Shown here: positions 4,515 through 52,097 of the stretch, one piece after another | Position numbering within the stretch: the first letter of the stretch is position 1 | Layout: the number at the start of each line of letters is the position of its first letter | Assembly (NCBI GenBank): GCA_937900945.1 | Contig: CALCGG010000050.1 | Location: forward strand, 1 to 52,097 | From: an uncultured Sulfurimonas sp. | GTDB lineage: Bacteria > Campylobacterota > Campylobacteria > Campylobacterales > Sulfurimonadaceae | Reading direction: 5' to 3' | Length of the DNA stretch: 52,097 nt | The notes under the pieces: model-generated | What the model saw: only the letters and a program-made list of their open reading frames with translations | Told to the model about the DNA's origin: nothing | Databases searched by the model: none | Translations under genes and position numbers: made by a program

Positions 4515-5780
4515 TTATGCCTCTAATGCTTGTTTGATGTCAGCTATCAGGTCTTTAACGGATTCTAATCCGCAAGAGATTCTGATAAGCCCTGAAGGAA
4601 CTCCGCATGCGATAAGCTCTTCCTGGCTTAACTGTTGATGTGTTGTCGAAGCAGGGTGGGTGATGATAGATTTTGAGTCACCTATGTTTACAACTAAAGA
4701 GTAAAGCTCAGTAGCATTTACTATTTTAGTAGCTTCTTCTAAACTCCCAACCTCAAAACTTAGAAGTCCCGAACATGCACCGTCTTGGAAATATTTTTGC
4801 GCATTTGCATAGTTTGAGTTGCTTTTAAGCCCCGGATAATTTACTTTTTTAACCTTTGGATGAGATTCTAAAAACTCAGAAAGTGCCAGTGCATTTTTAG
4901 AATGTTCTCTCATACGAAGTGACAAAGTCTCCATCCCCTGAATAAATAGCCATGAATTAAACGGAGAGACAACTGCTCCCAAATCGCGAAGAAGTGAAAG
5001 TCTTGCACGCAGTGTAAAAGCTGGAAGTGGTACATCAACATACACTAAACCATGGTAAGAGTGGTCAGGCTCATTAAAATGTGCGTAGCGAGGGTTTCCT
5101 TTGAGTTTGTCAAGTAAACCTTTTCTCTCAACTAAAATCCCGCCGATTGCCAAACCTTGACCAGTTGTATATTTACTGGCACTGTGAACCGTGATGTCAG
5201 CTCCAAACTCAAACGGACGGCATAAAACAGGAGTTGCAACTGTGTTGTCTACAACTGTTAATATTCCATGTTTGTTTGCTATTGTCGTTATAGCTTCTAT
5301 GTCTGCAACATCAATGCTTGGATTTGTTAAAGATTCAAAAAAGATGACCTTTGTTTTATCATCTACAAGCGCATCGATTTGCTCTGGTTTATGAACATCA
5401 AAAAATCTAGCTTCTATGCCAAATCTTTTAAATGTGTGGGCATTGAGAGTTAAGCTTCCGCCATAAAGCTGTTTTGCACATACTATGTTGTCGCCGGCTT
5501 CTGCAGCATTAGCAATAGCATAAAAAATAGCACTCATACCGCTTGAAGTTGCAAGTGCAGCTTCTCCGCCTTCAAGCTCTGCAAATCTTTTCTCAAATAC
5601 ATCAGTCGTAGGATTGTTTAAGCGAGTGTAGATATTTCCTAACTCTTTTAAAGCAAACAAATTTGCAGCGTGTTCAACATCGCGAAACTCATACGCAGTT
5701 GTCATGTAAATCGGAACCGCCATAGTCCCCTGTGAGTCTTTTTCATATCCGGCATGAAGCGCTTTTGTTTGTAAATCCAT
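4515..5780 (-). CDS. metY: O-acetylhomoserine sulfhydrylase (PLP-dependent)
   Basis: MetY replaces the acetyl group of O-acetylhomoserine with sulfide to give homocysteine, an apt use of sulfide in a sulfur-metabolising cell. The 421 residues match the Cys/Met-metabolism PLP family: TSSGMSAI (79-86) for phosphate binding, a Tyr near 106 (QLYGG), Asp178 (VVDNT) and the Schiff-base Lys203 in SASKYTTG. Length and the N-terminal QTKALHAGY fit MetY rather than the shorter MetB/MetC. ATG at 5778-5780 has AAGGAT 5 nt upstream. It has its own terminator and a promoter motif shared with metX. Confidence 0.93.
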   Translation of the reverse strand: MDLQTKALHAGYEKDSQGTMAVPIYMTTAYEFRDVEHAANLFALKELGNIYTRLNNPTTDVFEKRFAELEGGEAALATSSGMSAIFYAIANAAEAGDNIVCAKQLYGGSLTLNAHTFKRFGIEARFFDVHKPEQIDALVDDKTKVIFFESLTNPSIDVADIEAITTIANKHGILTVVDNTVATPVLCRPFEFGADITVHSASKYTTGQGLAIGGILVERKGLLDKLKGNPRYAHFNEPDHSYHGLVYVDVPLPAFTLRARLSLLRDLGAVVSPFNSWLFIQGMETLSLRMREHSKNALALSEFLESHPKVKKVNYPGLKSNSNYANAQKYFQDGACSGLLSFEVGSLEEATKIVNATELYSLVVNIGDSKSIITHPASTTHQQLSQEELIACGVPSGLIRISCGLESVKDLIADIKQALEA

Positions 5781-5814
5781 TGAAAATCCTTGGTTCTAAT
5801 ATAAATAATTTTAA

Positions 5815-5838
5815 TATTTTAGCAAAAATGGCTTAAGA
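5815..5838 (-). promoter_or_regulatory. metY promoter/operator, same motif as metX
   Basis: On the minus strand the site reads TCTTAAGCCATTTT, then T, then GCTAAAATA, ending 34 nt before the metY start. TGCTAAAAT is an extended -10. It matches the metX copy at 23 of 24 positions and sits at nearly the same distance from the start codon. Such conservation in an AT-rich intergenic region implies a regulator site overlapping the promoter. Confidence 0.65.
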
Positions 5839-5857
5839 TAAATATTGTTTTGGATAA

Positions 5858-5947
5858 AAATTATATGTATACAGTGATTATATGCGCACTCATTTTGATG
5901 ATGAAGAACAGTACATGTGTATAATAAAATTGATGAAGAGATTTTGA
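5858..5947 (+). pseudogene. Possible remnant of a bacteriohemerythrin-like gene
   Basis: A 29-codon plus-strand frame bounded by stops encodes YMRTHFDDEEQYM (5879-5917). It matches the His-Phe-x-x-Glu-Glu-x-x-Met iron-ligand signature of hemerythrin domains, which bind O2 at a di-iron site. The rest of the roughly 130-residue domain is absent on either side, and no start with a ribosome site is evident. It is short, so a chance match is possible. If real it is a decayed gene between rdd and metY. Confidence 0.35.
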
Positions 5948-5975
5948 CGTTTTTGGTAAGGAAGAGTAATCTTAT

Positions 5976-6470
5976 TTATGTGTTTTCATCAACATGAATG
6001 ACTGCAGTCCCTGCTAATAAGTCGTGCAGTCCTCTTTTGTCTTTTCTGAATGCGACCATTATGAAACCAATGAGAAAAAAGAGGGTAGATACGATATACC
6101 CAAGTGAACGAGTTATGGCTTGTTTGTTATCAATATCTCGATTTGTTTTAAAATCCACTATTTTTATATGAACAAACTTTTTTCCAGGTGTTGCTCCTCT
6201 CCATTTTTTCCAAAAAATCATAGTGACTACTAAGACAGAGATTTCAAAAAAAAGTTCCCACTTCAAAGAAGTTTGTGGTTGAGATGAAAGTGCTTTGGCA
6301 GCATTTCCGTTTAAAGCATAAGCCATGTTTTGTTGATACTGGGCAAAATCAAACCAATTGCCATCACTTAAAAAGTAGATGACTATAGCTACCGGTAGAG
6401 CAAGAAAAATCGTATCAACAAAGGATGCTGAAAAACGGATCCAAAAACCTGCATACTTTGTCTCATTCAT
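5976..6470 (-). CDS. RDD family membrane protein
   Basis: The 164-residue protein begins with the RDD signature (R12 in FWIRF, then SFVDTIF). Three hydrophobic segments follow (about 17-34, 73-86, 123-142), with ATPGKK in the middle and DKRGLHDLLAGTAVI near the end, as is normal for the family. The role of most RDD proteins is unknown; some are linked to ion transport. It lies 12 bp downstream of guaB and is probably the last gene of that transcript. No strong Shine-Dalgarno sequence is visible. Confidence 0.82.
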   Translation of the reverse strand: MNETKYAGFWIRFSASFVDTIFLALPVAIVIYFLSDGNWFDFAQYQQNMAYALNGNAAKALSSQPQTSLKWELFFEISVLVVTMIFWKKWRGATPGKKFVHIKIVDFKTNRDIDNKQAITRSLGYIVSTLFFLIGFIMVAFRKDKRGLHDLLAGTAVIHVDENT

Positions 6471-38758: not shown

Positions 38759-40162
38759 TTAGTCTAAATCTTCAAGTGAATGAATGAGTGCACCAAGCTT
38801 ATTTTCAACTTCTAGATACTCTAACTCATTTTGACTGTCTGCTACAATTCCGGCACCGGCCTGAAGGATTACATTGTCTTTTTTTACCATAGCAGTTCTG
38901 ATAGTTATAGCGCTATCCATGTTGCCGTCAAAACCGAAGTAGCCGATGCTGCCGCTGTAAAAGCCGCGCTTCAAGCCTTCATATTCGGCGATTAATTCCA
39001 TAGCTCTTATTTTTGGAGCTCCGGTCATAGTTCCGGCTGTAAATGTAGCCATAAACAGATCAAACATATCCTTGTCATCATCGAGTATGGCCGTTACATC
39101 TGAGACAATATGCATGACATGTGAGAATCTTTCTATATGCATCATGTTTTCAACTTTTACGGTTCCAGTTTTTGCTACACGCCCTACATCATTTCTGCCT
39201 AAATCTATAAGCATAAGATGTTCTGCCAGCTCTTTTGGGTCATGTAAAAGTTCTATCTCAAGCTCTTTGTCCCGCTCTTTGGTAGATCCTCTTTTTCTTG
39301 TACCGGCGATTGGTCTCAGGAGAAGCTCCCCGTTTGTAAGTCTGACCATAACTTCCGGTGAACTTCCGACAATATTGAAATCTTCATATTCCATAAGAAA
39401 CATGTAAGGAGACGGATTTTTTGTTCGCAGTATTCTATAAAAACTAAAAGGATCAACTTGTATGTTTCTGGTAAAACGGTTTGTCATGAGGATTTGAAAA
39501 ACATCACCGCTTCTTATCATCTCTTTTGAATCATCAATCATTTTGAAAAACTTCTCTTTGGAAAAAGCAAAGCTACCTTTGTCCTCTCCGATATTTTTTT
39601 TCATATGAACATATTCGTAAGAACTTTTTAGTTCCTGCTCAATGAGATCAAATTTTTTACTAAATTCTTCAAGTGTGCTTACAAGAGAAATCTGATGGTT
39701 TTTGTGAGAATATACTAAAATTATTTTTGGGAGAATTAAATCCAAATCAGGAGTGTTTAACTCATCTTTTAAGTGGTCCATACTCGAACCTAGTTTTGGC
39801 TCAAATACTTTTACCATATCATAACCAATATAGCCAATAAAGCCATCAACATAGCCAATATTGAGCTTTTTTGTCGCTTCTTTATAAGCAGATGCATCTA
39901 TATTTTTATAGTACTCTTTTAAAAATGTAAAAGGGTTTTCTTCTTTTATTTGCTTGATTCCATCAGCATCGGTATAGACGGTCTTATCATCTATGTACTG
40001 GAGTCTTTCTCTGGCACCTATGCAGATGAAACTGTAATTTCCTTCACTTTGACCGGCGCTCTCAAAAAGATAAGTAACTTCATCTTTAAAAATCGATTTG
40101 AGTTTAGAATAAACGGCAATAGGTGCTAATTGATCAAGTATAAATTGTTTAGAATATATCAA
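38759..40162 (-). CDS. trpE: Anthranilate synthase component I
   Basis: TrpE makes anthranilate from chorismate. The 467-residue protein has an N-terminal regulatory region with LFESAGQSEGNYSF (about 32-45, the position of the Trp-binding L-L-E-S), and a chorismate-binding core with QILMTNRF, PIAGTRKRGS, IDLGRNDVGRVA, GTMTGAPKIRAMELI and GFYSGSIGYF. PIAGT with Ala favours anthranilate synthase over PabB, which often has Lys there; this subtype call is not certain. No trpG, attenuator or leader peptide is seen; SPOR protein and trpE are 19 bp apart. Confidence 0.87.
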   Translation of the reverse strand: MIYSKQFILDQLAPIAVYSKLKSIFKDEVTYLFESAGQSEGNYSFICIGARERLQYIDDKTVYTDADGIKQIKEENPFTFLKEYYKNIDASAYKEATKKLNIGYVDGFIGYIGYDMVKVFEPKLGSSMDHLKDELNTPDLDLILPKIILVYSHKNHQISLVSTLEEFSKKFDLIEQELKSSYEYVHMKKNIGEDKGSFAFSKEKFFKMIDDSKEMIRSGDVFQILMTNRFTRNIQVDPFSFYRILRTKNPSPYMFLMEYEDFNIVGSSPEVMVRLTNGELLLRPIAGTRKRGSTKERDKELEIELLHDPKELAEHLMLIDLGRNDVGRVAKTGTVKVENMMHIERFSHVMHIVSDVTAILDDDKDMFDLFMATFTAGTMTGAPKIRAMELIAEYEGLKRGFYSGSIGYFGFDGNMDSAITIRTAMVKKDNVILQAGAGIVADSQNELEYLEVENKLGALIHSLEDLD

Positions 40163-40181
40163 AAGAAAACCTTGATGAAAG

Positions 40182-40832
40182 TTATATTTTTACTAGAAAA
40201 GCACCAGGTTCTATACTGCTTTTTACGGTTTTCAAGGCATTTCGTGCATCTTTTTCAGAATCAAAAGGACCAACTAAAACTTTGTTTAATGTTTTTGCAT
40301 TATCTGTTACTTTGTAGTATTGATACTTAAAACCTTTATCCGTAATAGATTTTAAGAATTTTGCATTTGGCTCATATCTTGAAAAAGATCCAACTTGAAT
40401 AAAATAGGATGGAGTAGATGCTGGTTTTACCATTTTAGTTTCCAAAGCTGCTTTGGTCTCAACTTTTACCGGAGCTGCTTTTTGAATAGCTTTTGCTTTT
40501 TCTTCTGGTATTGCTTCAGTTTTACTCTCTTCTTTTAATCTTTGAGCGATTTTGTTTAAGTTGTCATCATTTATTTTTGGTTCTTCTACTACATCAACAT
40601 CTTCAAAAAGAGGTTCTTCCACAGCCTGCTCGGCAGATATGCTTTTCGGTTCAGGAGGCAACACTGCTTGAGGTAAATTGTCAGTACCATTGGAAGTGAG
40701 AGAATTCATAAGCATTATTACAATAATTAAAACAACGCCTAAAGTAGCAACTACCAAGATTATTTTTTTATTGCCATTGACTCCGTTATCTTTATTTAAA
40801 ATAATGTCATTTAATTCATTTTTCTCTTGCAT
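40182..40832 (-). CDS. SPOR-domain membrane protein
   Basis: The 216-residue protein has a short cytoplasmic N terminus, one membrane helix (about 23-42), a long Pro/Glu/Lys-rich periplasmic linker and a C-terminal SPOR domain (about 142-216, PSYFIQVGSFSRYEPN and LVGPFDSEKDARNAL). SPOR domains bind denuded glycan at the division site, so a role in septation is likely. AGAGGT precedes the ATG. It is the first gene of the SPOR-trpE-aroE string. Confidence 0.87.
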   Translation of the reverse strand: MQEKNELNDIILNKDNGVNGNKKIILVVATLGVVLIIVIMLMNSLTSNGTDNLPQAVLPPEPKSISAEQAVEEPLFEDVDVVEEPKINDDNLNKIAQRLKEESKTEAIPEEKAKAIQKAAPVKVETKAALETKMVKPASTPSYFIQVGSFSRYEPNAKFLKSITDKGFKYQYYKVTDNAKTLNKVLVGPFDSEKDARNALKTVKSSIEPGAFLVKI

Positions 40833-40892
40833 AGTATTACCTCTTATAGTTTTAATTTATAATCATACCTAATTTTACTGTATTATTTGTTT

Positions 40893-40941
40893 TAAAATAG
40901 AAAAAAGCATATGCGGTTTAGTTAAAAACTACATATGCTTT
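40893..40941 (-). terminator. Rho-independent terminator after the DUF1882 gene
   Basis: On the minus strand AAAGCATATG and CATATGCTTT (plus coordinates 40932-40941 and 40904-40913) form a 10-bp stem followed by CTTTTTTCTATTTT. The first arm includes the last codons of the DUF1882 gene. Confidence 0.8.
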
Positions 40942-41471
40942 GACCAAGAAGCTCCACGCTCTTTGGCATAAACTTCATAGGGTAAAGTTAAGATATTATA
41001 TTCATTTGGCATCTCATCATTAGGAAACATTCTCCACTGTTTAGGCTGTTTAGCAGCAAGCTTCATACTAATCATTTTTCCAAGCTGTATAGCCTCTTGC
41101 AAAGTTGTGTGTCCTTTATGTATATAAACATGAAGATGACCTTCTGTCTTTGTGTTGTATGCAGTGAAGTTTATATAACCTTCTTCCCTAAGAAGAAGTT
41201 GCGCTTTATGATAAAATCGTTCTGGGTCTCTTCCATTATAGTCTATCACTATGTTTTCAACTTTTCCATGACTATTCACTAGAGAATGAGCAACAGCTAT
41301 TTCACCTTTAAGATGTTGGTTGATAACTGACTGTGACAATGGAGCATCAACTTTCTCAAACTTATTATAAAAAGTGCGGCCTTTAAATGTGAGTTTGTCC
41401 ACCACCGTATCTCTTTTTATCCAGTAGTGGTCGCTGACCATTTTGATAAGTTTTAGATCCATTGCAGTCAT
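40929..41471 (-). CDS. DUF1882 family protein
   Basis: The 180-residue protein matches DUF1882, a family I know only from Campylobacterota, where it commonly follows glyA (H. pylori HP0184 beside HP0183). It contains ISDHYW-like aromatic segments, [25 protein letters not shown] and a His/Lys-rich [10 protein letters not shown]. The last part resembles the primase small-subunit pattern seen in some DNA-binding proteins, but I would not assign a function. AAGGAT 6 nt upstream supports the first ATG. It starts 9 bp after the glyA stop. Confidence 0.82.
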
Positions 41472-41480
41472 TGCGTATCC

Positions 41481-42728
41481 TTAGTAAGTTGATTGATGAT
41501 ATATTACAAAGTTTTGTGCCAGTGCTTTTAACTCTTCTTTTATTTTTGATTGTAATTCAGTATTATTGATATCATCTAAAACATCTGCCATTTTATTTGC
41601 AATCAGTTCAAATTCTTTTTCTTTCATGCCTCTGCTTGTAAGTGCCGGAGAACCAACTCTTATACCCGAAGTAACAAAAGGGCTTCTTGTCTCACCTGGA
41701 ACAGTGTTTTTGTTAATAGTTATACCTGCATTTCCAAGAGCTGCATCTGCATCTTTACCAGAAAATTCACGACCTACAAAAGATACCAGGATTAAGTGAT
41801 TGTCTGTCCCGCCGCTCACTACGTCATAACCTCTTTTCATCATAACTTCTGCAAGTACTTTAGCATTGGCTTTTACTTGTTTAGCGTACTCTTTCCACTC
41901 AGGTGAAAGGTTATATTTGAAACCAACAGCTTTTGCAGCGATTACATGTACAAGTGGACCGCCTTGAAGAGCAGGGAAGATGGCAGAATTCATCTTCTTA
42001 GCAATATCTTCGTCATTAGTCATAATCATACCGCCTCTTGGACCTGCAAGAGTTTTATGAGTAGTAGTTGTAACAACATGTGCGTGCGGGAATGGGCTAG
42101 GGTGTTCACCGGCTGCAACCAAACCAGCGATGTGTGCAATATCTGCAAATAAAATTGCTCCAACTTCATCAGCGATTTCGCGGAATCTTTTGAAGTCAAT
42201 TTCTCTTGCATAAGCAGAAGCGCCACAGATAATAATCTTCGGCTGAGTAATTTTAGCTATATCTAAAACTCTATCGTAGTTTATACGACCATCAAGCTCA
42301 ACACCATAAGTAAATGAATGGTAGTTTTGACCGGAAAAACTTGGTTTTGAACCATGCGTCAAGTGACCGCCATGGCTTAAATCCATACCTAGTATTTTAT
42401 CACCGGCTTTAATCAGTCCAGCATAAACAGCGGCATTTGCCTGAGATCCCGAGTGCGGTTGAACATTCGCATAATTACATCCAAAAAGCTCACATGCTCT
42501 GTCTATAGCTAACTGCTCAACGCCATCAGCATACTCACATCCGCCATAATAACGCTTGCCAGGGTAACCTTCGGCATATTTGTTTGTAAAAACAGAACCC
42601 ATAGCTTCCATAACTGCAGGAAGTGTAAAGTTTTCAGATGCAATCATCTCTAAATGGTCCGTTTGACGTTCCAACTCTTTTTCGCATAACTGATAGATAT
42701 CGTTATCAAATTCTTGTAAAAAACTCAT
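41481..42728 (-). CDS. glyA: Serine hydroxymethyltransferase
   Basis: GlyA interconverts serine and glycine, loading one-carbon units on tetrahydrofolate. The 415-residue protein has [16 protein letters not shown] (about 30-45), [24 protein letters not shown], the HIAGLVAAG segment, the Schiff-base Lys in [15 protein letters not shown] (about 225) and the C-terminal [14 protein letters not shown]. It has its own promoter and shares a transcript with the DUF1882 gene. Confidence 0.97.
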
Positions 42729-42763
42729 GTTGTAAAATTCCTTGTGAAATTTAAAATGGATGT

Positions 42764-42769
42764 ATTATA
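42764..42769 (-). promoter_or_regulatory. -10 box for glyA
   Basis: Minus-strand CTTTTTGTATAAT: a T-run, TG-type spacing and TATAAT, 35 bp upstream of the glyA ATG. It is the clearest Campylobacterota-style promoter in the window. Confidence 0.65.
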
Positions 42770-42798
42770 CAAAAAGTATCTTATAAATAGATAAGAAT

Positions 42799-43785
42799 TT
42801 AGAGCCTGTCTTTAGCAAAATGGGCAGCTCCAAACAATGCTGTTTCTTGATTGAGAGATACTTTAACCTGCATTTCTCTTAACATATTTTCAAAACGTCC
42901 TTTGGCTGTAAATGCATTCATAAAGTTTTGATTTTGTAAAAAAGGTAAGATTTTCGGAGCTATTCCTCCACCTATATACACACCGCCTAAAGACATACTC
43001 TTAAGTGCTAAGTTTCCTGCTTCAGCACCGTATATCTCAGCAAAAAGTTTGAGTGTCTCAACACAGAGCGGGTCATTTTCTTTAAGAGCACAGGTACTAA
43101 TCGTCGCACTGCGGTCTTGGGTAGGAGCTATGTTGAGCATTGAAGCAGGTTGCGGTGCAAAGCCGCTCTCTGACAAAAACTGATAAAGAGTATAAATCCC
43201 CGGTCCCGATAAAATTCTCTCAAAACTTACATGTTCTGGATAGCGCTTTCTTAGCCAACTTAAAAGTGCATCCTGCTGCGCTGTAACCGGTGCAAAGTCA
43301 GTATGCCCACCTTCTGAGCCGATTGGATGATAAGATGTTCCATCAAAATACAGCATCGCCTCACCCAGACCTGTTCCGGCAGCTATAACTGCACGGTTGC
43401 CTTGAGTGTTTGTGGAGCTTGGGTTTAGATGTACAAACTCATTTTCATCCAAATATAACATCCCATAAGCTGTAGCTTCAAGGTCATTGAGCAGGTGGAC
43501 TTTTGAAGTCCCGAGAGTGTTTTGAAGTTCAGAACTTGCAATATCCCAAGGTAAATTGGTTGTTTTGCATCTTCCATCTATTACAGGTCCGGCTACACCG
43601 AAACAGGCAGAATCTATAGCTGATAATATATGCTGTTTCTTAAAGGCATGTATCACATCGCTGAAACTTGTATAATCACGGCTTGCAAACTGTGTTTGTG
43701 CATGTATAGTAAGTTTCTCCTCTTTAATTTCAAAAAGTGCTAAATTTGTTTTTGTTCCGCCGATATCACCTGCTAAAATCATCAT
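42799..43785 (-). CDS. glk: Glucokinase
   Basis: Glk phosphorylates glucose to glucose-6-phosphate. The 328-residue protein has the phosphate loop LAGDIGGTKTNLALFE (about 4-19), LLNDLEATAYGM, GTGLGEAML (about 134-142), a Glu-Gly-Gly-His segment SEGGHTDFAP and GGVYIGGGIAPK. It belongs to the Glk (PF02685) type rather than the ROK type, since the ROK zinc cysteines are missing. It lies 6 bp downstream of the GH15/PhK-like gene, so the two products probably work in the same glucan or trehalose metabolism. Confidence 0.93.
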   Translation of the reverse strand: MMILAGDIGGTKTNLALFEIKEEKLTIHAQTQFASRDYTSFSDVIHAFKKQHILSAIDSACFGVAGPVIDGRCKTTNLPWDIASSELQNTLGTSKVHLLNDLEATAYGMLYLDENEFVHLNPSSTNTQGNRAVIAAGTGLGEAMLYFDGTSYHPIGSEGGHTDFAPVTAQQDALLSWLRKRYPEHVSFERILSGPGIYTLYQFLSESGFAPQPASMLNIAPTQDRSATISTCALKENDPLCVETLKLFAEIYGAEAGNLALKSMSLGGVYIGGGIAPKILPFLQNQNFMNAFTAKGRFENMLREMQVKVSLNQETALFGAAHFAKDRL

Positions 43786-43791
43786 AAAATC

Positions 43792-46700
43792 CTAATTTTC
43801 TTGTGTTAAATAAATAAATGCATCCAAGAAAGCAATATCGCTCTCTTTAAGACTGTATCGATAAAAGGCTTCCCAAGCCTGACCGCGTTCTTCATCGTAA
43901 TTATCCAAGCTATGGTTTTTACCCCAGGCAATTCTTACCGCATGTCCAATAAGTACATCTAAAACTAAATCATTTTTTATACTGATTTGAGGGTTATTAT
44001 GAAACAGGCGAGTTAGGCACTCAATAGCTTCAATGTTTAATTGTCTGTAATCAGTCGCTTCTATGCTGTGTAGCAATGAATCAATTTTAAGTGCAAAATC
44101 GCGCTCACCTGCAGTTACAGCAAGTGTAGCTTCTTTACCGATACGGTTTTTAATATTGTACTTATCCCCGATAACTAGTCCTTCACATTGTTGCAACAAA
44201 TACCATATGTCTTTATAGAAGTTTGGGGACAATCGTGCAATCATCCCTGTATCGAGGCGCCATTGTGCCCAATCTTCCACATCAGTGTTCTCATGTTCAT
44301 TTGTCGGTACATCTAATTTTTCTATGTTTTGTAAGCCTATAATAGACAAATTTTCTTGATTTTGCATACTTACTACTTCACCGCCAAAGGATTGTAAAGT
44401 AGTTTTCAATCTATCATAAATATCATGAGGTGCTAATCCTAAAAGATGCTCATACGCATCACTCATAGGAATATCAAATTCTCTGCTGATATGTCCAACT
44501 AAAAGTTGTACAAAATACCAGGTACGCAGAGTCAATAGATTTGTAAAGAGTTTCGGCTCGCTTCGTATAAGGTGTCCCAAGTGAAGAATAATCTCTTGAG
44601 TAAGAACATTTTCTGCAGAATTGTGACCACAAAATTCTGAAATAGTAGCTACGATAGCGGTGCTCTCCAATGGCTGAGAAAAGGTCGCTTTTTCACTGTA
44701 AGCGCGTCCTATTGCCAGACGTTTTTGTACGATGACAATATCAAGCAAAGCATCTTCAAGTCTCTCATCAAACTTGGAAGTTATTTCGGCGAGATGACGA
44801 ACAGCAGCCCAATTACTGCAAATCATTGCTTCTTCATAAGAATGTTCAGCTATTTCTGAAATTTTGTGATATTCACCATTCTTTTGAATCTTAAAATCTC
44901 CGCCATGACGATTCCATAATCTTGAAAGTATGTGTGCTATAGTTAAACGATTTTTTTCTTCAACAAGCCAGTGAACTAAAGTATCATCATCTTTTTCATC
45001 CATCTCTTGGAGTTGCTGCGCAGATAAAGATTGGATAACTGCATTTTTTTCGAGATTGTTGCAAAGTGTATGGTTTCTTTTTTGCAGTTCATTCAATGTA
45101 AGATTATGAATGTTGTCTATGCGTTCCACTGCTGCTGTGTTTAACAGCTGTCTTAATGCTCCGATACGAACCATAATATCACCGCAAATACCTGTTTGAA
45201 AATCATGGAGCAATTTTAAAACTACATCTTTATCTTGTCCTAAAATCATATCTTCACGCACTAAAAATGGCATAATTGGCTGACCGGGAAGATCCCAATG
45301 GCGGGATAAAAATTTTAAAGACGACCGAAACTGATTGACAAGGAGTTTATTGTCATAACTAAAATAAAATCCTTTAGGATTAAAATAATAAGGGAGAAAA
45401 ATCATCTCCTGATCAGCTAACATGTGCAGTCTTGATGAGGTAATTGTTCTTGTAACCAACATCGGTCTGCCGGTTAAAGACAACTTTTCATTTTTACCGA
45501 TAATGGTGTGTATTTTTGAGAGTTCATGAGCATGTAAAACTTTGATGGGACTTACATTTTCAAGTGTCTGGCTCTCAAACCCTAAATCAAGGAGCTTTTG
45601 TTTTACAGAGTTATTCTCAGCTAAAATAGGAATTAAAATCTGAGTGTTGCGCTGATGTCCAATACGTTCACATCGGTGCAGAGGGTCTATGTCACTTGGA
45701 CGTAAAATATCATCTTGTATCATGTCGCTTAACATGTAAAGACTTTGCGCCCAGACTAAAGGGATATTTTCATTGGGGATGCGTGTTTGAGAGCCGGGAT
45801 TTTGTTTTTCATCTTCTATAGTTTCTTTCGAAACCATGTATAACTCAGGCAATAATTTTTCACCATCTTGATTTACAAAAGTATGCTCAAGTTTATCCCT
45901 CCATAGTTGAATGGCATCACTATCTTCTCTCATGTGCGCATCAAGAAGCAGGTAGGTGAAAAAGAGCGGCCATTCTGATTCTATATGCTCAAAGGCTCTT
46001 AGTTCTTGGGGTTCATAATGAAGTCGTGAATCATCTTCAATGGCAGTTTGGTGTCCATCGAGTAAAAATCGTTTACAACCATAGTTTCCAGAGAGTTTTT
46101 TGATTATTTTTTTGCGTGTTTTTTCTAAAAGCACTTTGTCTTCGATGGCGTATGCAGGATAGCCGATAATACTGAGTAGTGCTGCGTCTGTTTCTTTTGA
46201 GTTGGATTCTCTTGGCAAGAGTCCATGCAGGGTAAATCTTGATCTTGCAATGTCGCTTGGCACAACATGTATGACCGCTTCTTGAGAAGAAACATTTCCA
46301 AAAAGATTAAAACCGTTCATGGCTTCGAGTGCTGCTTTTGCCATTCCGACAGAACTTGCATTGATTTCAGGTGTTCCATGGTTAATTTTATTGCCGCGCT
46401 CCCAGATGCCAAAATCAGGGGTGCAATAAGTACGGCTGATGTAGTGGACAAGGTTTTGAATAAAGTTTACTTCATCCATCGTGTAAATCAGTTTTAATCC
46501 TGAAGCAGTCATTTGAGCAATCATGAGTAGGTAAAGCGATGTTGCGTCCAGTTGCAAATGTCCCCATTCACCGTCACCTACAACCGGCAGTCCAGTGTTT
46601 GTTCCGTATTTCGCGTGTAAGGCATTCATCGGGTTGAGTGAGTTTTTAAACTTTTCTACATGGCTGGCTTGGCGCATCATGGCAGTTAAAAGCCCACGCA

Positions 46701-46959
46701 TAAGTTTGACTACACTTTGACTTAATAGATACGTGCGATGATGGTCCGGATTATACTTGCGGTAGGAAAGGGACAAGCCCCAGACACTCAGAATGCTGTA
46801 AACATTATCGCGTACCCATGCGTCTGTATAGTCGCCATGTGCATTCACAGAGGTACTTGCCGGAAGTAGTCCGGTAATGGGGTCCTGGCGTGCTAAAATA
46901 ATCTTGTTAATTGATTTGTAATGTTTATCTAGCAAATACTCTATCGTTTCAAAATTCAT
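43792..46959 (-). CDS. GH15/phosphorylase kinase alpha-beta-like large protein
   Basis: The 1055-residue protein carries a GH15-type (alpha/alpha)6 region over about the first 420 residues: ARQDPITGLLPAS (about 23-35), DAWVRDNVYSILSVWGLSL (about 46-64), GEWGHLQLDATSLYLL (about 131-146), then PEINASSVGMAKAALEAM. This pattern is shared by glucoamylases and the regulatory alpha/beta subunits of eukaryotic phosphorylase kinase; the full length and long helical C-terminal half match the phosphorylase-kinase-like bacterial group. Neither a glucosidase activity nor a regulatory role is proven. No signal peptide is seen, so it is cytoplasmic. AAGGTG precedes the ATG. It is between rraA-like and glk. 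Confidence 0.82.
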   Translation of the reverse strand: MNFETIEYLLDKHYKSINKIILARQDPITGLLPASTSVNAHGDYTDAWVRDNVYSILSVWGLSLSYRKYNPDHHRTYLLSQSVVKLMRGLLTAMMRQASHVEKFKNSLNPMNALHAKYGTNTGLPVVGDGEWGHLQLDATSLYLLMIAQMTASGLKLIYTMDEVNFIQNLVHYISRTYCTPDFGIWERGNKINHGTPEINASSVGMAKAALEAMNGFNLFGNVSSQEAVIHVVPSDIARSRFTLHGLLPRESNSKETDAALLSIIGYPAYAIEDKVLLEKTRKKIIKKLSGNYGCKRFLLDGHQTAIEDDSRLHYEPQELRAFEHIESEWPLFFTYLLLDAHMREDSDAIQLWRDKLEHTFVNQDGEKLLPELYMVSKETIEDEKQNPGSQTRIPNENIPLVWAQSLYMLSDMIQDDILRPSDIDPLHRCERIGHQRNTQILIPILAENNSVKQKLLDLGFESQTLENVSPIKVLHAHELSKIHTIIGKNEKLSLTGRPMLVTRTITSSRLHMLADQEMIFLPYYFNPKGFYFSYDNKLLVNQFRSSLKFLSRHWDLPGQPIMPFLVREDMILGQDKDVVLKLLHDFQTGICGDIMVRIGALRQLLNTAAVERIDNIHNLTLNELQKRNHTLCNNLEKNAVIQSLSAQQLQEMDEKDDDTLVHWLVEEKNRLTIAHILSRLWNRHGGDFKIQKNGEYHKISEIAEHSYEEAMICSNWAAVRHLAEITSKFDERLEDALLDIVIVQKRLAIGRAYSEKATFSQPLESTAIVATISEFCGHNSAENVLTQEIILHLGHLIRSEPKLFTNLLTLRTWYFVQLLVGHISREFDIPMSDAYEHLLGLAPHDIYDRLKTTLQSFGGEVVSMQNQENLSIIGLQNIEKLDVPTNEHENTDVEDWAQWRLDTGMIARLSPNFYKDIWYLLQQCEGLVIGDKYNIKNRIGKEATLAVTAGERDFALKIDSLLHSIEATDYRQLNIEAIECLTRLFHNNPQISIKNDLVLDVLIGHAVRIAWGKNHSLDNYDEERGQAWEAFYRYSLKESDIAFLDAFIYLTQEN

Positions 46960-46967
46960 GAAACACC

Positions 46968-47450
46968 TTAACTATGCAGCGGTTTATCTGTAACAATAAC
47001 GCCATCCGTATCAGCATATAAATAGTCGCCAGTTTTGAAATTTACTCCGCCAAAGAGAAGAGGAATATCTCTTGTTCCTTGTGTGATAGGGATGTATTTT
47101 CTAGGGCAGGTTCCAAGAGCATATAAGGCTACATGTAACTCTTTTATCTGATAAGTGTCTCTGATATATCCATTTACAATAATTCCGGAATAATTGTTTT
47201 TTAGAGCAAATTTCATTAAATTTTCCCCAACAACTGCAAAATATTCTTGGTCTACATCTACAACCACAACCTTGCCTGTTCCATCTTCATCTCTAAGCAG
47301 TTTTATCAATTCTGAATTATTTTTATCCAACTTTACAGTTACTATTTCACCATGACATTTATGTGCACCACCAAAATTTTTATACGTTCCATCCAATACT
47401 TCAACTCTATCACTGTACTCATCACAAAAATCTGCTGTAAAAAAATCCAT
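46968..47450 (-). CDS. RraA-family protein (probable aldolase)
   Basis: The 160-residue protein has the RraA fold pattern: an early D-F-C-D-E-Y, FGGAHKCHGEIVTVK, VVGENLMKFALKN in place of the usual GD/EN loop, IVNGYIRDTYQI (Arg-Asp of the substrate/metal site, about 113-114) and a final YLYADTDGVIV. E. coli RraA inhibits RNase E; many relatives are 4-hydroxy-4-methyl-2-oxoglutarate aldolases or oxaloacetate decarboxylases. The retained GYIRD and the RNase Y gene in this genome favour the enzyme role. AAGGAAAG precedes the ATG. It leads the rraA-GH15-glk string. Confidence 0.85.
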   Translation of the reverse strand: MDFFTADFCDEYSDRVEVLDGTYKNFGGAHKCHGEIVTVKLDKNNSELIKLLRDEDGTGKVVVVDVDQEYFAVVGENLMKFALKNNYSGIIVNGYIRDTYQIKELHVALYALGTCPRKYIPITQGTRDIPLLFGGVNFKTGDYLYADTDGVIVTDKPLHS

Positions 47451-47482
47451 TAACTTTCCTTATATAATTAATTATTAATCGC

Positions 47483-47488
47483 ATTTTA
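47483..47488 (-). promoter_or_regulatory. Putative -10 box for the rraA-GH15-glk operon
   Basis: Minus-strand TAAAAT in GTTAAAATGCG, 33 bp upstream of the rraA-like ATG. Confidence 0.35.
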
Positions 47489-47532
47489 ACACCTTCTAAC
47501 CTTACTTTTACAAAAATTTGAGTATCTTTTCA

Positions 47533-47538
47533 TATAAA
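47533..47538 (+). promoter_or_regulatory. Putative -10 box for the glutamate mutase operon
   Basis: TATAAA follows CTTTTCA and lies 24 bp before the mutase S-subunit ATG. The ribosome site is weak (TAGG about 11 nt upstream). The whole divergent region 47451-47561 is 111 bp. Confidence 0.35.
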
Positions 47539-47561
47539 TAACTAAATAGGCATACAAATAT

Positions 47562-47972
47562 ATGAAAGTAGTAACAGGCGTTGTTGGAAATGATATTCAT
47601 GTTGTTGCAAATAGATTAATCGAACTTTCATTGAATGCAAGAGGCTTTGAAGTGTTTAATCTTGGGGTAAATACTTACTTGGAAGAGTTCTTTGATGCTG
47701 CTGTTGAGACAGGTGCAGAGATATTGCTTATCTCTTCACTTAATGGTGAAGCAGAGGGGTGGAGTAGGGAAGTAAAGCTTCTAAAATCAAAATATAAAAC
47801 TCTTGATAATCTTGTGATGGTGATTGGCGGAAACTTAGTTGTGGGAACTGCAAGTGCCGAGACTATAGTTCCTAAATACAAAAAATACGGTTTTGATTTG
47901 GTATTTCATCAGGTTGATTTAAATACCGGGCTCGACACACTCGAAGAGTATTTGAAAGAGAGAAATAACTAA
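47562..47972 (+). CDS. glmS: Glutamate (methylaspartate) mutase, B12-binding small subunit
   Basis: The 136-residue protein is a cobalamin-binding domain: GVVGNDIHVVANRLIE (about 6-21) holds the D-x-H that supplies the axial His ligand to cobalt, followed by ISSLNGEAEGW (about 57-67) and VIGGNLVVG (about 87-95) around the B12 tail, and a terminal FDLVF. The classic D-x-H-x-x-G has Ala in place of Gly. Together with subunit E it interconverts L-glutamate and (2S,3S)-3-methylaspartate by a radical carbon-skeleton rearrangement. Its stop overlaps the next start (TAATG). Note that the symbol is also used for an unrelated amidotransferase; this is the mutase subunit (also called mutS/mamA). Confidence 0.87.
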   Translation: MKVVTGVVGNDIHVVANRLIELSLNARGFEVFNLGVNTYLEEFFDAAVETGAEILLISSLNGEAEGWSREVKLLKSKYKTLDNLVMVIGGNLVVGTASAETIVPKYKKYGFDLVFHQVDLNTGLDTLEEYLKERNN

Positions 47973-49336
47973 TGAGTTTATTACAAGAAGAGAGAGAGAT
48001 AATTCTCTCAAATGAACATGTAGATAACTTTGATTTTGCAGAAGTTGAAGATTTTATAAGAAATGCAGATAAAAACTTATTTATTTCTCATCATTTTAAA
48101 AACAAAAAAAAGATGCTTGTTCAGCCAAGAGGCGGATTTCCGACATATAAAAAACAGTTTGCCCTCAATGAGTTTTTTGTAGAGGCAAACGTAGATGTGC
48201 TCCCTCTGACTATTGACTCAAATACAAGACTCAATGACTACGCGACAGCAAAAAAGATGCTTCGTCTGAGTGAAGAGAATGATGTGGACATGTTAAACGG
48301 GTATCCTCTGGTAACGCATGGCTATAGAACCACAAGAAAGATGGTGACCCATTTTAACAAGCCGGTGAGTCTCAGACACGGAACTCCCGATGCCAGACTT
48401 CTTATTGAAACTGCTCTTGCTTCTGGTATTTTTGATATAGAGGGCGGACCTATTACTTATCTTTTGCCTTATTCAAAAAACTTTCCGCTTGACAAGGCCT
48501 TTTTATATTGGAAATATGTAGAAAAAGTGTGTGCCAACTACTCAAAACTCAATGAGCCTATAAACAGAGAATCCTTTGGTCCGCTCACTGCAACTTTAGT
48601 ACCTCCTGCCATAACGATTGTAATCCAGCTTTTAGAGATGCTTCTCTCGCTTGAAGAAGGTGTCAAATCATTTTCTGTATCTTTTTCCCAAACCGGTTCT
48701 ATGAATCAAGACATAGTGATGGGAGCCGTGATTAAAAAGTTGTCGCGACACTATGCAGATTCAATTGACTGCAGTGATGCTACTATCAATCTTGTGTATC
48801 ATCAATGGATGGGTGCATTCCCAACAAACAAAGATTTTGCAGAGCAACTCATAAACATGTCAACAGTTATTGCCGCTATGGTTGGAGCTGATAAAATAAT
48901 CACAAAAACAAGAGAAGAGGCTTCGGGTATTCCTACAAAAGAGGCAAATGCCAAAACTGTTGCAAACACTCAATATACTCTGGGTATTTTAAACGGCTTG
49001 CCTAATATCGTGGATGAGGAAGAGGAAGAGATTTTAACGCTCGAAGTACATGCCATCATGGAAGCGGTATTTAATGACAGTGCAGATACTTTGTGGAGAA
49101 AAGTGTTCAACTCCATAAAGAGCGGAATCATTGATGTTCCTTTTTCTCCGCATATTATAAATCACAATGAGATGATTACCATCAGAGATGCAAAGAAAAA
49201 CATACGAATCATAAAGAGGGGAAATGTTCCTATTCCCGACCGCTGTTATGAGTACGAAAAAGCGCAATGCGACCTTACAAAAGATACTACAAGCATGGTA
49301 AATGATATTATTCATGACATAGGGATTATGCAATGA
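47972..49336 (+). CDS. glmE: Glutamate (methylaspartate) mutase, catalytic subunit E
   Basis: The 454 residues align in order with clostridial GlmE: LVQPRGGFPTY (Arg53), LPLTIDSNTRLNDY (Arg86), LNGYPLVTHG, VSLRHGTPDARLL (Arg135), IEGGPITYLLPYSKN (Glu157, Tyr163, Tyr167), NRESFGPLTATLVPP, VYHQWMGAFP and ASGIPTKEANAKTV. The three Arg and the Glu/Tyr residues match, as I recall the structure, the residues that hold both carboxylates of the substrate, so glutamate or a close dicarboxylate is the likely substrate. It is about 30 residues shorter than the clostridial enzyme (483), mainly at the N terminus. It overlaps both neighbours by 1-4 bp. Confidence 0.9.
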   Translation: MSLLQEEREIILSNEHVDNFDFAEVEDFIRNADKNLFISHHFKNKKKMLVQPRGGFPTYKKQFALNEFFVEANVDVLPLTIDSNTRLNDYATAKKMLRLSEENDVDMLNGYPLVTHGYRTTRKMVTHFNKPVSLRHGTPDARLLIETALASGIFDIEGGPITYLLPYSKNFPLDKAFLYWKYVEKVCANYSKLNEPINRESFGPLTATLVPPAITIVIQLLEMLLSLEEGVKSFSVSFSQTGSMNQDIVMGAVIKKLSRHYADSIDCSDATINLVYHQWMGAFPTNKDFAEQLINMSTVIAAMVGADKIITKTREEASGIPTKEANAKTVANTQYTLGILNGLPNIVDEEEEEILTLEVHAIMEAVFNDSADTLWRKVFNSIKSGIIDVPFSPHIINHNEMITIRDAKKNIRIIKRGNVPIPDRCYEYEKAQCDLTKDTTSMVNDIIHDIGIMQ

Positions 49337-50529
49337 AAGAAGTAAACGAAAAACTACTGATAGATGTAGGAAGCACTTACTTTAAGGTGAGTACAGCTTC
49401 AAGCATTGAGCAGCACTTAAGAGACTTTAACAAAGATATCTTAGATGATTTAACCTATAAATGCGGCGAGATAATTCATGGCTATGATAAAGACGATATC
49501 TATATCTGTTCTTCTGCAAATGGCGGACTTAGCACACTGATTATCGGCATTACGAACTCATTTTCACTGAAATATGCCACAAATATCGCTTTCAACTCTG
49601 GAATAAATATTATTGATAAAGTTCTATATCAGAATATAGAAGATTACTCCGTTCCAAGTGACTTGATTGATGTTGTCATAGTGGTTGGCGGAATCAACTC
49701 CTCTTCCAATATCTTTGGCGAACCTCTTTTTAGTTATTTAGAGAAGTTAAATTACTCAAACATAGTATATGTCGGAAGTGAAGAAGAGGCACCAAGATTG
49801 CAAGCAACAATCCAAAATCTTGTGGTGTTGCCAAATGTCATTGACAATAAACTTCATATAATTGAAGAGCATTTAAAAGAGTATTTGACAAATCTATACC
49901 AGCTTGATATTGTCGGCAAAGAGGATATTAAAAATTTATACACAATTACATCAAATCAGATATATCCTACTCCGTATATTGTAAATAAAACACTTCCCTT
50001 TATAGATACAAAGTTTGCTGTTGTAAATCCATTCATACTTATAGATATAGGCGGCGCAACTACGGATATCCATTACTCTAAAGATTTAGTGGATGAAAAT
50101 ATAGTTACGGTAAATGAGTATGACAGATTGGTATTTAAAAAGCTTGGTGTCTATAAATCAAAAGAATCTCTCATTTTTACGGCAAAAAACAATGAGTTTG
50201 TATATGAGCTTTTAACGTATCTCAAAGTTACAGAGAATATCTTTGAAGAACAGAGTGAAAAAGCGCTTAAAGTACTTATGCAGCTCGCTATTTTTCTTGT
50301 ACTTTGCAAGATGTCACATTATAAACAAGCCTATATCAACTTAAAGCTATTATCTATAAACTCCATAGTTTTAACAGGCGGCATCACTAAAGTTTTGGCT
50401 GATACAGAAGTAGAGGATATAATCTCGTTTTTTTATAAAAAGATACTCAATTCAAGTCATAATCCATCTGTTGTCATGGATCATGACTATGATATTTGGA
50501 CACTTGGAATCACAAACAATAAAGGATAA
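49333..50529 (+). CDS. glmL: GlmL/MutL-family protein (mutase-associated ATPase-like)
   Basis: This protein of 398 residues belongs to the MutL family found between or beside glutamate mutase genes. It has an actin/Hsp70-like ATPase pattern: LLIDVGSTYFKVST (phosphate 1, about 8-21), FILIDIGGATTDIHYS (phosphate 2, about 234-249) and SIVLTGGITKVLAD (adenosine, about 345-358). Such proteins are thought to reactivate the mutase by exchanging damaged cobalamin; this is inferred for the family and not shown by sequence. It is unrelated to DNA repair MutL. Start overlaps the glmE stop by 4 bp (ATGA). Confidence 0.85.
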   Translation: MKEVNEKLLIDVGSTYFKVSTASSIEQHLRDFNKDILDDLTYKCGEIIHGYDKDDIYICSSANGGLSTLIIGITNSFSLKYATNIAFNSGINIIDKVLYQNIEDYSVPSDLIDVVIVVGGINSSSNIFGEPLFSYLEKLNYSNIVYVGSEEEAPRLQATIQNLVVLPNVIDNKLHIIEEHLKEYLTNLYQLDIVGKEDIKNLYTITSNQIYPTPYIVNKTLPFIDTKFAVVNPFILIDIGGATTDIHYSKDLVDENIVTVNEYDRLVFKKLGVYKSKESLIFTAKNNEFVYELLTYLKVTENIFEEQSEKALKVLMQLAIFLVLCKMSHYKQAYINLKLLSINSIVLTGGITKVLADTEVEDIISFFYKKILNSSHNPSVVMDHDYDIWTLGITNNKG

Positions 50530-50532
50530 ATC

Positions 50533-52097
50533 ATGTCTATAAATTGCATAAGAACACTTATCGAAGATGCTGCCATTTCACATGCAGATAAGGTAGCGGT
50601 TGTTTTTGAAGAAAAAACAATTACATATTCTGAGTTATTGACAAAAGTCAATCAGGTGGCCTTTTATCTCAAAGAGTTGGACCTTCCGAAAGATTCGCGG
50701 GTTGGTGTTTATTCAAGCAGAGGGATTGAGCAGATTATTGCCATCCTTGCAATTTTATCCACTGATTATATTTTGGTGCCGCTCACAAAGCTTCTTAAAC
50801 CGGAACAGGTTGAGTACATCATCAATGATTGTGAAATCAAATGTATCATAACAGATAAATTAAAACTTGAAAATATAGAAGAGATTCATTTTAGCGGGCA
50901 TATTATCTCGTATGAGACGACTACAAAAGAGATTGCGTCTTTTGAAGAGATTTTTAAATATTATAAAAAGCCTTACATGTGCGATATAAACGGACATTCC
51001 AACGCTGTTATCACTTACTCGTTTGGACTCAGCGGAACTCCAAAAGGTATAGTGATCTCTCATAGAAATCTCATAGATTCTGCCCGTGTTGTTTCACAAT
51101 ATCTGAAGTTACAAGAGGATGATATTATCTCCGGAATACTTATTTTCAATCTTGATTATGGGCTCAACCAGATTTTCACCGCCCTTTATAAAAGAGCGAC
51201 TTTGGCTTTGCACAAGCTTATACTCTCTCAAGATTTTTTAAATCATCTTATCAATGATAATGTAACGGTGATACCGCTCATGCCTGTCAATATTACTCAG
51301 ATTTTTGATGAGGATACACACAGATTGCCAAACAGTGAGCTTTTTGCAAATGTCAGGACTATCACCTCTTCAGGAGGTAAAGTAACTCTTAAAATGATTC
51401 AGGATTGTAAAAAACTCTTTACAAATGCAAGTTTTTATTCCATGCATGGACTTACGGAAGCATTCAGATCCACATATCTAGACCCAAGCCAGATAGAGAT
51501 AAGACCGGATTCTATCGGAAAAGCTATTCCTGATGTAGAGTTGTATGTTATAAACAACGAAGGAAAAGAGTGTGCTGCCAGAGAAGTAGGGGAGTTGATT
51601 CACAGAGGCGGATATATCTATAGAGGTTTTTGGAATGCGCCGGAACAGACTCACGAGAGATTTAAGTCAATACAAATTTTAAAAGATGTAGTCAACCTCG
51701 ATGGGCAATTAACAGATGAAATTGTTGTTGCAACCGGTGATTATGTATATAAAGATGAAGAGGGCTACTTCTACTTTGTCTCAAGACATGACAATATGAT
51801 AAAAACCAGAGGCTTTAGAGTTTCTCCATACGAAATAGAATCAGTTGTATCAAAAAACATACCTCAAATAGAGCAATGTGCAGTATTTTCTATAGAAAAC
51901 GAACAGATTGAAGAAGAAATCATCATGGTTTATTCTTCAAAAAGTGAAATGAGTTCAAAAGAGATATTATTTGAGTTGAAAAAGCACCTGGCATCTTATA
52001 TGATTCCAAGCAGAGTAATCTATAAAAAATCACTTCCATTGATTCAAAGTGATAAAAATCAGATTAATAAAGAGGCACTTAAGAGGGAATTGCAAGC
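50533..52097 (+). CDS. AMP-forming acid/amino acid ligase (runs off right edge)
   Basis: From ATG 50533 (GGATAAATC upstream) the frame is open for 521 codons to the window end. Adenylation motifs are in order: the P-loop TYSFGLSGTPKGIVISH (about 161-177), FNLDYG (Asp208), YSMHGLTEA (302-310), VVATGDYVYKDEEGYFYFVSRHDNMIKTRGFRVSPYE split across 398-434, and the C-terminal catalytic Lys508 in QSDKNQIN. The Gly before that Lys is Asp. The text resembles, as I remember it, AMP-forming ligases found with a PLP decarboxylase and a carrier protein in exosortase-type clusters. Substrate is unknown; following a glutamate mutase, 3-methylaspartate is a reasoned guess. The protein is nearly complete, missing only its last residues. 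Confidence 0.85.
   Translation, partial: MSINCIRTLIEDAAISHADKVAVVFEEKTITYSELLTKVNQVAFYLKELDLPKDSRVGVYSSRGIEQIIAILAILSTDYILVPLTKLLKPEQVEYIINDCEIKCIITDKLKLENIEEIHFSGHIISYETTTKEIASFEEIFKYYKKPYMCDINGHSNAVITYSFGLSGTPKGIVISHRNLIDSARVVSQYLKLQEDDIISGILIFNLDYGLNQIFTALYKRATLALHKLILSQDFLNHLINDNVTVIPLMPVNITQIFDEDTHRLPNSELFANVRTITSSGGKVTLKMIQDCKKLFTNASFYSMHGLTEAFRSTYLDPSQIEIRPDSIGKAIPDVELYVINNEGKECAAREVGELIHRGGYIYRGFWNAPEQTHERFKSIQILKDVVNLDGQLTDEIVVATGDYVYKDEEGYFYFVSRHDNMIKTRGFRVSPYEIESVVSKNIPQIEQCAVFSIENEQIEEEIIMVYSSKSEMSSKEILFELKKHLASYMIPSRVIYKKSLPLIQSDKNQINKEALKRELQ

Follow-up and report, generated by a model that had tools for sequence, protein, structure and literature searches.

What does a bacterium make of 3-methylaspartate when its glutamate mutase genes are followed by a ligase-family gene in the place where fermenting clostridia have methylaspartate ammonia-lyase? 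This question is raised by the right-hand end of the window analyzed here, the whole of contig CALCGG010000050.1 (52,097 nucleotides) from an uncultured Sulfurimonas sp. (GCA_937900945.1; 2.35 Mb in 244 contigs, with Sulfurimonas-type Campylobacterota as nearest named relatives). An earlier, sequence-only reading had placed glmS, glmE, glmL and an AMP-forming ligase there in one operon, and had proposed that a building block was made as in vicenistatin biosynthesis, with a carrier protein and a pyridoxal phosphate (PLP)-dependent decarboxylase. The explanation that we prefer, held at about an even chance, is that of a mobile and conserved module for 3-methylaspartate, in which an atypical ligase works independently of a carrier and is joined by an RraA-like partner, the product of a divergent gene that had been overlooked.

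A glutamate mutase operon that ends in a ligase gene

The layout of the operon was confirmed: glmS and glmE overlap by 1 bp, glmE and glmL by 4 bp, and 3 bp separate glmL from the ligase gene, a spacing which suggests that the four genes are cotranscribed. The GlmE profile was then scanned against one genome per species; 223 relatives were confirmed and the best 80 loci were kept for locus comparisons. The same gene order was observed in the fetched GlmE loci with a sufficiently long contig, and the arrangement is therefore not a product of chance. The contig ends at 52097, within the last ligase codons (521 of about 524 residues are present). Since the following 10 kb, where biosynthetic genes had been expected, are absent from the assembly, the downstream gene content was examined in intact relatives.

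GlmS scored above the cut-off of the NCBIfam equivalog NF002612 (152 bits, cut-off 110), matched PF02310 and the S chain of glutamate mutase in the PDB (E 1.5e-18), and carried the B12 motif in its DxHxxA form (G-N-D-I-H-V-V-A). GlmE matched PF06368 (E 4e-114) and TIGR01503 (E 1e-109; 367 bits, slightly below the cut-off of 390). When it was aligned to the solved Clostridium cochlearium GlmE, Arg66/100/149, which we take to be the substrate-binding arginines, were retained as R53/R86/R135, and Glu171 and Tyr177/181, presumably catalytic, as E157 and Y163/Y167; His150 (H136), Lys326 (K312) and Glu330 (E316) were also retained. R53, R86, R135, E157, Y163, Y167, K312 and E316 were invariant across seven orthologues. 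Family membership and the presence of all the checked active-site residues support a genuine adenosylcobalamin-dependent glutamate mutase, as had been predicted, and this conservation makes glutamate very probably its substrate. From what is known of the family, GlmS-GlmE with coenzyme B12 would convert L-glutamate into (2S,3S)-3-methylaspartate, and GlmL, a member of the MutL family PF13941 (E 2e-24; 72 bits to NF040745, cut-off 475), would keep the mutase active.

The ligase: a familiar pocket and altered ATP motifs

The best curated family for the ligase was TIGR03098 (435 bits, below the cut-off of 592). Over its substrate half (residues 150-345), the best stand-alone match in the PDB was VinN (3wv4/3wvn; E 3e-10 for 3wv4). 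In the VinN pocket, D230 holds the amino group of 3-methylaspartate, F231 and S299 push the substrate, and K330 and R331 lie on a shortened loop (review PMC11253843). These five residues align to D208, Y209, S280, F311 and R312 of the ligase, the beta13-beta14 loop is as short as that of VinN, and the alignment has no loop gap. D208, Y209, S280 and R312 were invariant in all 75 glm-linked sequences. The AlphaFold model was weak at residues 305-420 (mean pLDDT 69); it was read for the ANL fold only and was left out of the pocket claims.

True TIGR03098 ligases, the exosortase type, were fetched as a control set for motif comparison. They have the VinN D230/S299/R331 positions and adjoin a LysA-type PLP decarboxylase, TIGR03099 (loci L142, L144, L151 and L157). 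By analogy with VinN and VinO, the substrate that this exosortase pair activates and then decarboxylates may be an acid resembling aspartate or methylaspartate.

The ATP-side motifs distinguished the glm-linked clade from these ligases. The A3 loop, YTSGSTG[RK]PKG in TIGR03098, has become YSFG[LMIV][ST]GxPKG, with Phe164 invariant (75/75) and the P-loop Lys171 kept in 69 of 75. At A10, LPRNPNGKIDR is replaced by LPLVQSDxNxINK with a two-residue insertion; a lysine stands at the aligned position in only 26 of the 75 sequences and two residues earlier in 61, in contrast to the conserved GK of the exosortase ligases. The A5 tyrosine is replaced by His305. T308-E309, D403, R418 and K424 are retained, and the hinge and the A8 lysine are intact. 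In the two most distant orthologues read (L024 and L025), A3 and A10 diverge further. VinN has an unusual A3 loop of its own (SGSTAAPKAV) and yet is active. The A3 and A10 changes therefore say more about adenylation as such than about whether the ligase is related to VinN.

An RraA-like fifth member and the spread of the module

The product of the overlooked gene scored 151 bits to NF006875 (cut-off 136) and matched PF03737, and its gene adjoins the operon in most of the 80 loci. Among 397 Campylobacterota genomes, GlmE was found in 58 and the ligase in 57 of these, with no ligase outside the GlmE genomes; all 58 encode the RraA-like protein, compared with only 3 of the 339 genomes that lack GlmE. 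The resulting co-occurrence table (58/0/3/336) gives a Fisher value that ignores phylogeny and is not readable as a probability. Of 57 positioned rraA genes, 14 did not lie within 6 kb (two at 8-14 kb, seven at 80-268 kb and five on other contigs), so that linkage alone is insufficient to explain the co-occurrence. Because it holds even where the genes are unlinked, the RraA-like protein was judged to belong to the module. One of the three GlmE-less genomes with rraA (G253) carries a deletion remnant of the module, in which rraA and glmS are intact, glmE and glmL are deleted, and the ligase is reduced to its last 51 residues.

The protein carries the motif E76-X20-R97-D98, followed by Q101; E76 was conserved in 62 of 63 sequences and R97 and D98 in all 63. 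It is thus an acidic variant of the metal motif of the HMG/CHA aldolases, which is D-X20-R-D or G-X20-R-D-X2-E/D. To our knowledge, the bacterial class of the host lacks RNase E. In 32 of the 80 loci, many of them gammaproteobacterial, a gene for an aspartate/aromatic-type aminotransferase of about 395 aa (named by eye) lies upstream of rraA and convergent to it. Its product could be a transaminase of 3-methylaspartate, or the gene could simply mark an insertion site that these clusters share.

GlmE loci were found in Sulfurimonas, in Arcobacteraceae and in marine Gammaproteobacteria, among them Colwellia, Vibrio, Amphritea, Neptuniibacter and Seongchinamella, so the system extends beyond the chemolithotrophic Campylobacterote that the sequence-only reading had envisaged. 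GlmE identity in the 80 loci, nearly all from these two phyla, was 81-97%. The order glmS-glmE-glmL-ligase recurred, with glmL beside glmE in 78 loci and the ligase gene in 75, the missing cases lying at contig ends. In the GlmE tree, many of whose rows are metagenome-assembled genomes, Sulfurimonas was nested in gammaproteobacterial sequences and the gammaproteobacteria in Arcobacter-type sequences; this nesting suggests transfer of the module between phyla, a tree being no proof of it. For the module parts tested, nonsynonymous divergence was low (0.02-0.16; about 0.1 for the ligase) against near-saturated synonymous divergence, which indicates that they are under purifying selection.

Features of the module in the window, and a decayed copy in a relative
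Feature	Coordinates	Strand	Description
glmS	47562..47972	+	136 aa, cobalamin-binding small subunit of glutamate mutase
glmE	47972..49336	+	454 aa, catalytic subunit of glutamate mutase
glmL-like	49333..50529	+	398 aa, short and divergent, probable ATP-dependent reactivating chaperone of the mutase
ANL-superfamily ligase, glm-linked clade	50533..52095	+	PF00501 and PF13193, VinN/TIGR03098-type pocket
RraA-like protein	46968..47450	- (divergent from glmS)	160 aa, NF006875, PF03737
Decayed module remnant	L174 (G253:C1:1600000-1612000), ~5272-6461		rraA, glmS, 51-residue ligase end

Preceding rraA in the window (42799-46959) are genes for a glucokinase (PF02685) and a 1055-aa GH15/phosphorylase-kinase-C-terminal protein; glucokinase-like and glycogen synthase-like genes likewise adjoin glmS-glmE in another genome (G047, L023). 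In 14 Arcobacteraceae loci, a c-type cytochrome-like protein of about 92 aa (CIGCHG) is encoded 3' of the ligase, and a similar one occurs near the module of L027. The Rfam search gave no cobalamin riboswitch within 40000-52097, and a search with the defence-system library gave zero matches.

Weighing the explanations against known systems

In the preferred explanation, the ligase-family protein would bind 3-methylaspartate through its VinN-like pocket and, probably with its carboxylate activated, the bound 3-methylaspartate would then be used on an acceptor other than a dedicated carrier. The likely role of the RraA-like protein in this pathway would be that of a metal-binding enzyme of the pyruvate-aldolase fold or of a partner. 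A bolder form, which we put forward only tentatively, is that five proteins, moving horizontally as one module among free-living bacteria of at least two phyla, run an undescribed 3-methylaspartate pathway, and that the ANL protein with its altered phosphate loop uses 3-methylaspartate, or senses it, with neither standard ATP chemistry nor a carrier. Several observations weigh against the preferred explanation. True TIGR03098 ligases carry the same DYG, SGG and GLTEAFRSTYL motifs, so the pocket is no proof of a 3-methylaspartate substrate, and Lys330 of VinN is Phe in the ligase. The degenerate A3 and A10 motifs may mean that ATP activation is absent altogether. One small, 97% complete genome (G396:C32, L171) has glmS-glmE-glmL and rraA and no ligase; the place of the ligase gene is taken there by a gene judged by eye to be NAD(P)HX epimerase-like. 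Finally, of 23 Campylobacterota genomes searched for the CobA/CobO/BtuR adenosyltransferase PF02572, a single one encoded it, PduO and EutT types not having been searched, so coenzyme B12 must come from another type of adenosyltransferase or from uptake.

The vicenistatin-type route, in which the ligase would adenylate 3-methylaspartate and load it on a carrier for a PLP decarboxylase to yield a 3-aminoisobutyryl unit, now appears decidedly improbable. Its precedent is the joint work of glutamate mutase, VinN, VinL and VinO in Streptomyces (PMC11284099). Among stand-alone solved enzymes, none is closer to the substrate half of the ligase than VinN, and the related TIGR03098 ligases adjoin a LysA-type decarboxylase. 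The expected likeness to VinN was borne out for the Asp, Ser and Arg of the pocket and for the loop length, but F231 and K330 are replaced by Tyr and Phe and the pocket is common to TIGR03098 ligases; similarly, the ANL family assignment stood, but with A3 and A10 altered adenylation is unproven. The predicted carrier and decarboxylase did not emerge. No genes for either were found after the ligase in intact operons of relatives, and none recurred around the 80 loci. In six holders of the module (G002, G368, G309, G039, G439 and G442), the entire genome encodes only one PP-binding protein, presumably AcpP, which indicates that a dedicated carrier is not required. The genome of the window gave three PP-binding matches; such extra ones occur in non-holders too and are no consistent trait of holders. 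It encodes one LysA-type (449 aa) and one SpeA-type (609 aa) decarboxylase, the same pattern as in non-holders, and no extra LysA-type decarboxylase (PF02784) was found in Campylobacterota holders compared with non-holders, other PLP decarboxylase families not having been searched. No TIGR03099 member above the cut-off was found in this genome, and the best match, the 449-aa LysA-type protein amid housekeeping genes, was rejected as a candidate.

That the ligase-family protein has lost phosphate handling and is no longer an ATP-dependent ligase, serving instead as a sensor that binds 3-methylaspartate, as a partner of the mutase or as an enzyme with some other adenosine compound as its substrate, seems unlikely, though less so than the vicenistatin-type route. 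The invariant Phe164 of the changed A3 loop and the scarcity of the A10 lysine speak for it, together with the retained amino-acid pocket and AMP/adenosine-facing residues (D208, R312, T308-E309, D403, R418 and K424). Against it stand the activity of VinN despite its altered A3, the largely kept Lys171, the intact hinge and A8 lysine, and the fact that another lysine could replace that of A10. A route to 2-oxobutyrate, the isoleucine precursor, in which 3-methylaspartate is transaminated to 3-methyloxaloacetate and decarboxylated by the RraA-like protein, is quite improbable. RraA-fold aldolases are also oxaloacetate decarboxylases (PMC5065237), E76/R97/D98 are conserved, and the aminotransferase gene adjoins rraA in the 32 loci mentioned; but this gene is absent from Sulfurimonas clusters, and the ligase would be left without a role. 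Replacement of threonine dehydratase by such a route was considered and rejected, the threonine-dehydratase C-terminal domain being present in holding and non-holding Sulfurimonas-type genomes alike. Scarcely credible is a methylaspartate pathway for catabolism or acetate assimilation, in which the ligase would activate mesaconate as its CoA ligase, even though glutamate mutase operons are so used in clostridia, some Enterobacteriaceae and haloarchaea (PMC4682846). Methylaspartate ammonia-lyase was absent in 25 of 26 holders, where the matches to its C-terminal family were all short and weak, and the ligase pocket retains an amine-binding Asp. The absence of the lyase agrees with the sequence-only reading, which had named a downstream lyase as a sign of catabolism.

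No description of this operon was found in the open-access papers searched, most subscription papers lying outside the scope of the search. Three fates of 3-methylaspartate are known to us: it is fermented, it passes through the haloarchaeal acetate cycle, or it becomes a building block of antibiotics. The module fits none of them, which points to an undescribed use of 3-methylaspartate and to a widespread, unassigned use of B12 in marine bacteria; moreover, its near-perfect co-occurrence with the mutase gives the RraA-like protein a testable metabolic partner.

With the vicenistatin genes vinH/vinI/vinN/vinL/vinO of Streptomyces halstedii, the module shares a glutamate mutase and an ANL enzyme whose pocket agrees with VinN at D230, S299 and R331 and in loop length; it differs in its altered A3 and A10 motifs and in that the dedicated carrier, the VinO-type decarboxylase and the nearby polyketide genes are missing, while a reactivase and an RraA-like protein are present. 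The TIGR03098/TIGR03099 pair of the exosortase-A systems contains the closest curated ligase family, with the shared pocket motifs at 27-37% identity (below the family cut-off); nevertheless, canonical A3 and A10 are found only in those ligases, which adjoin a PLP decarboxylase, whereas the ligase of the module adjoins a glutamate mutase. The glutamate mutase-methylaspartate ammonia-lyase operons of glutamate-fermenting clostridia and some E. coli (PMC4682846) have the mutase subunits and the reactivase family in common with the module, which lacks ammonia-lyase, mesaconase and citramalate lyase and is ordered S-E-L-ligase. The RraA-like protein shares with RraA and the HMG/CHA aldolases the fold family, an acidic residue and the Arg-Asp pair, but has Glu instead of the Asp of D-X20-R-D and Gln instead of the Glu/Asp of the other motif, and in this case it is tied to a glutamate mutase module.

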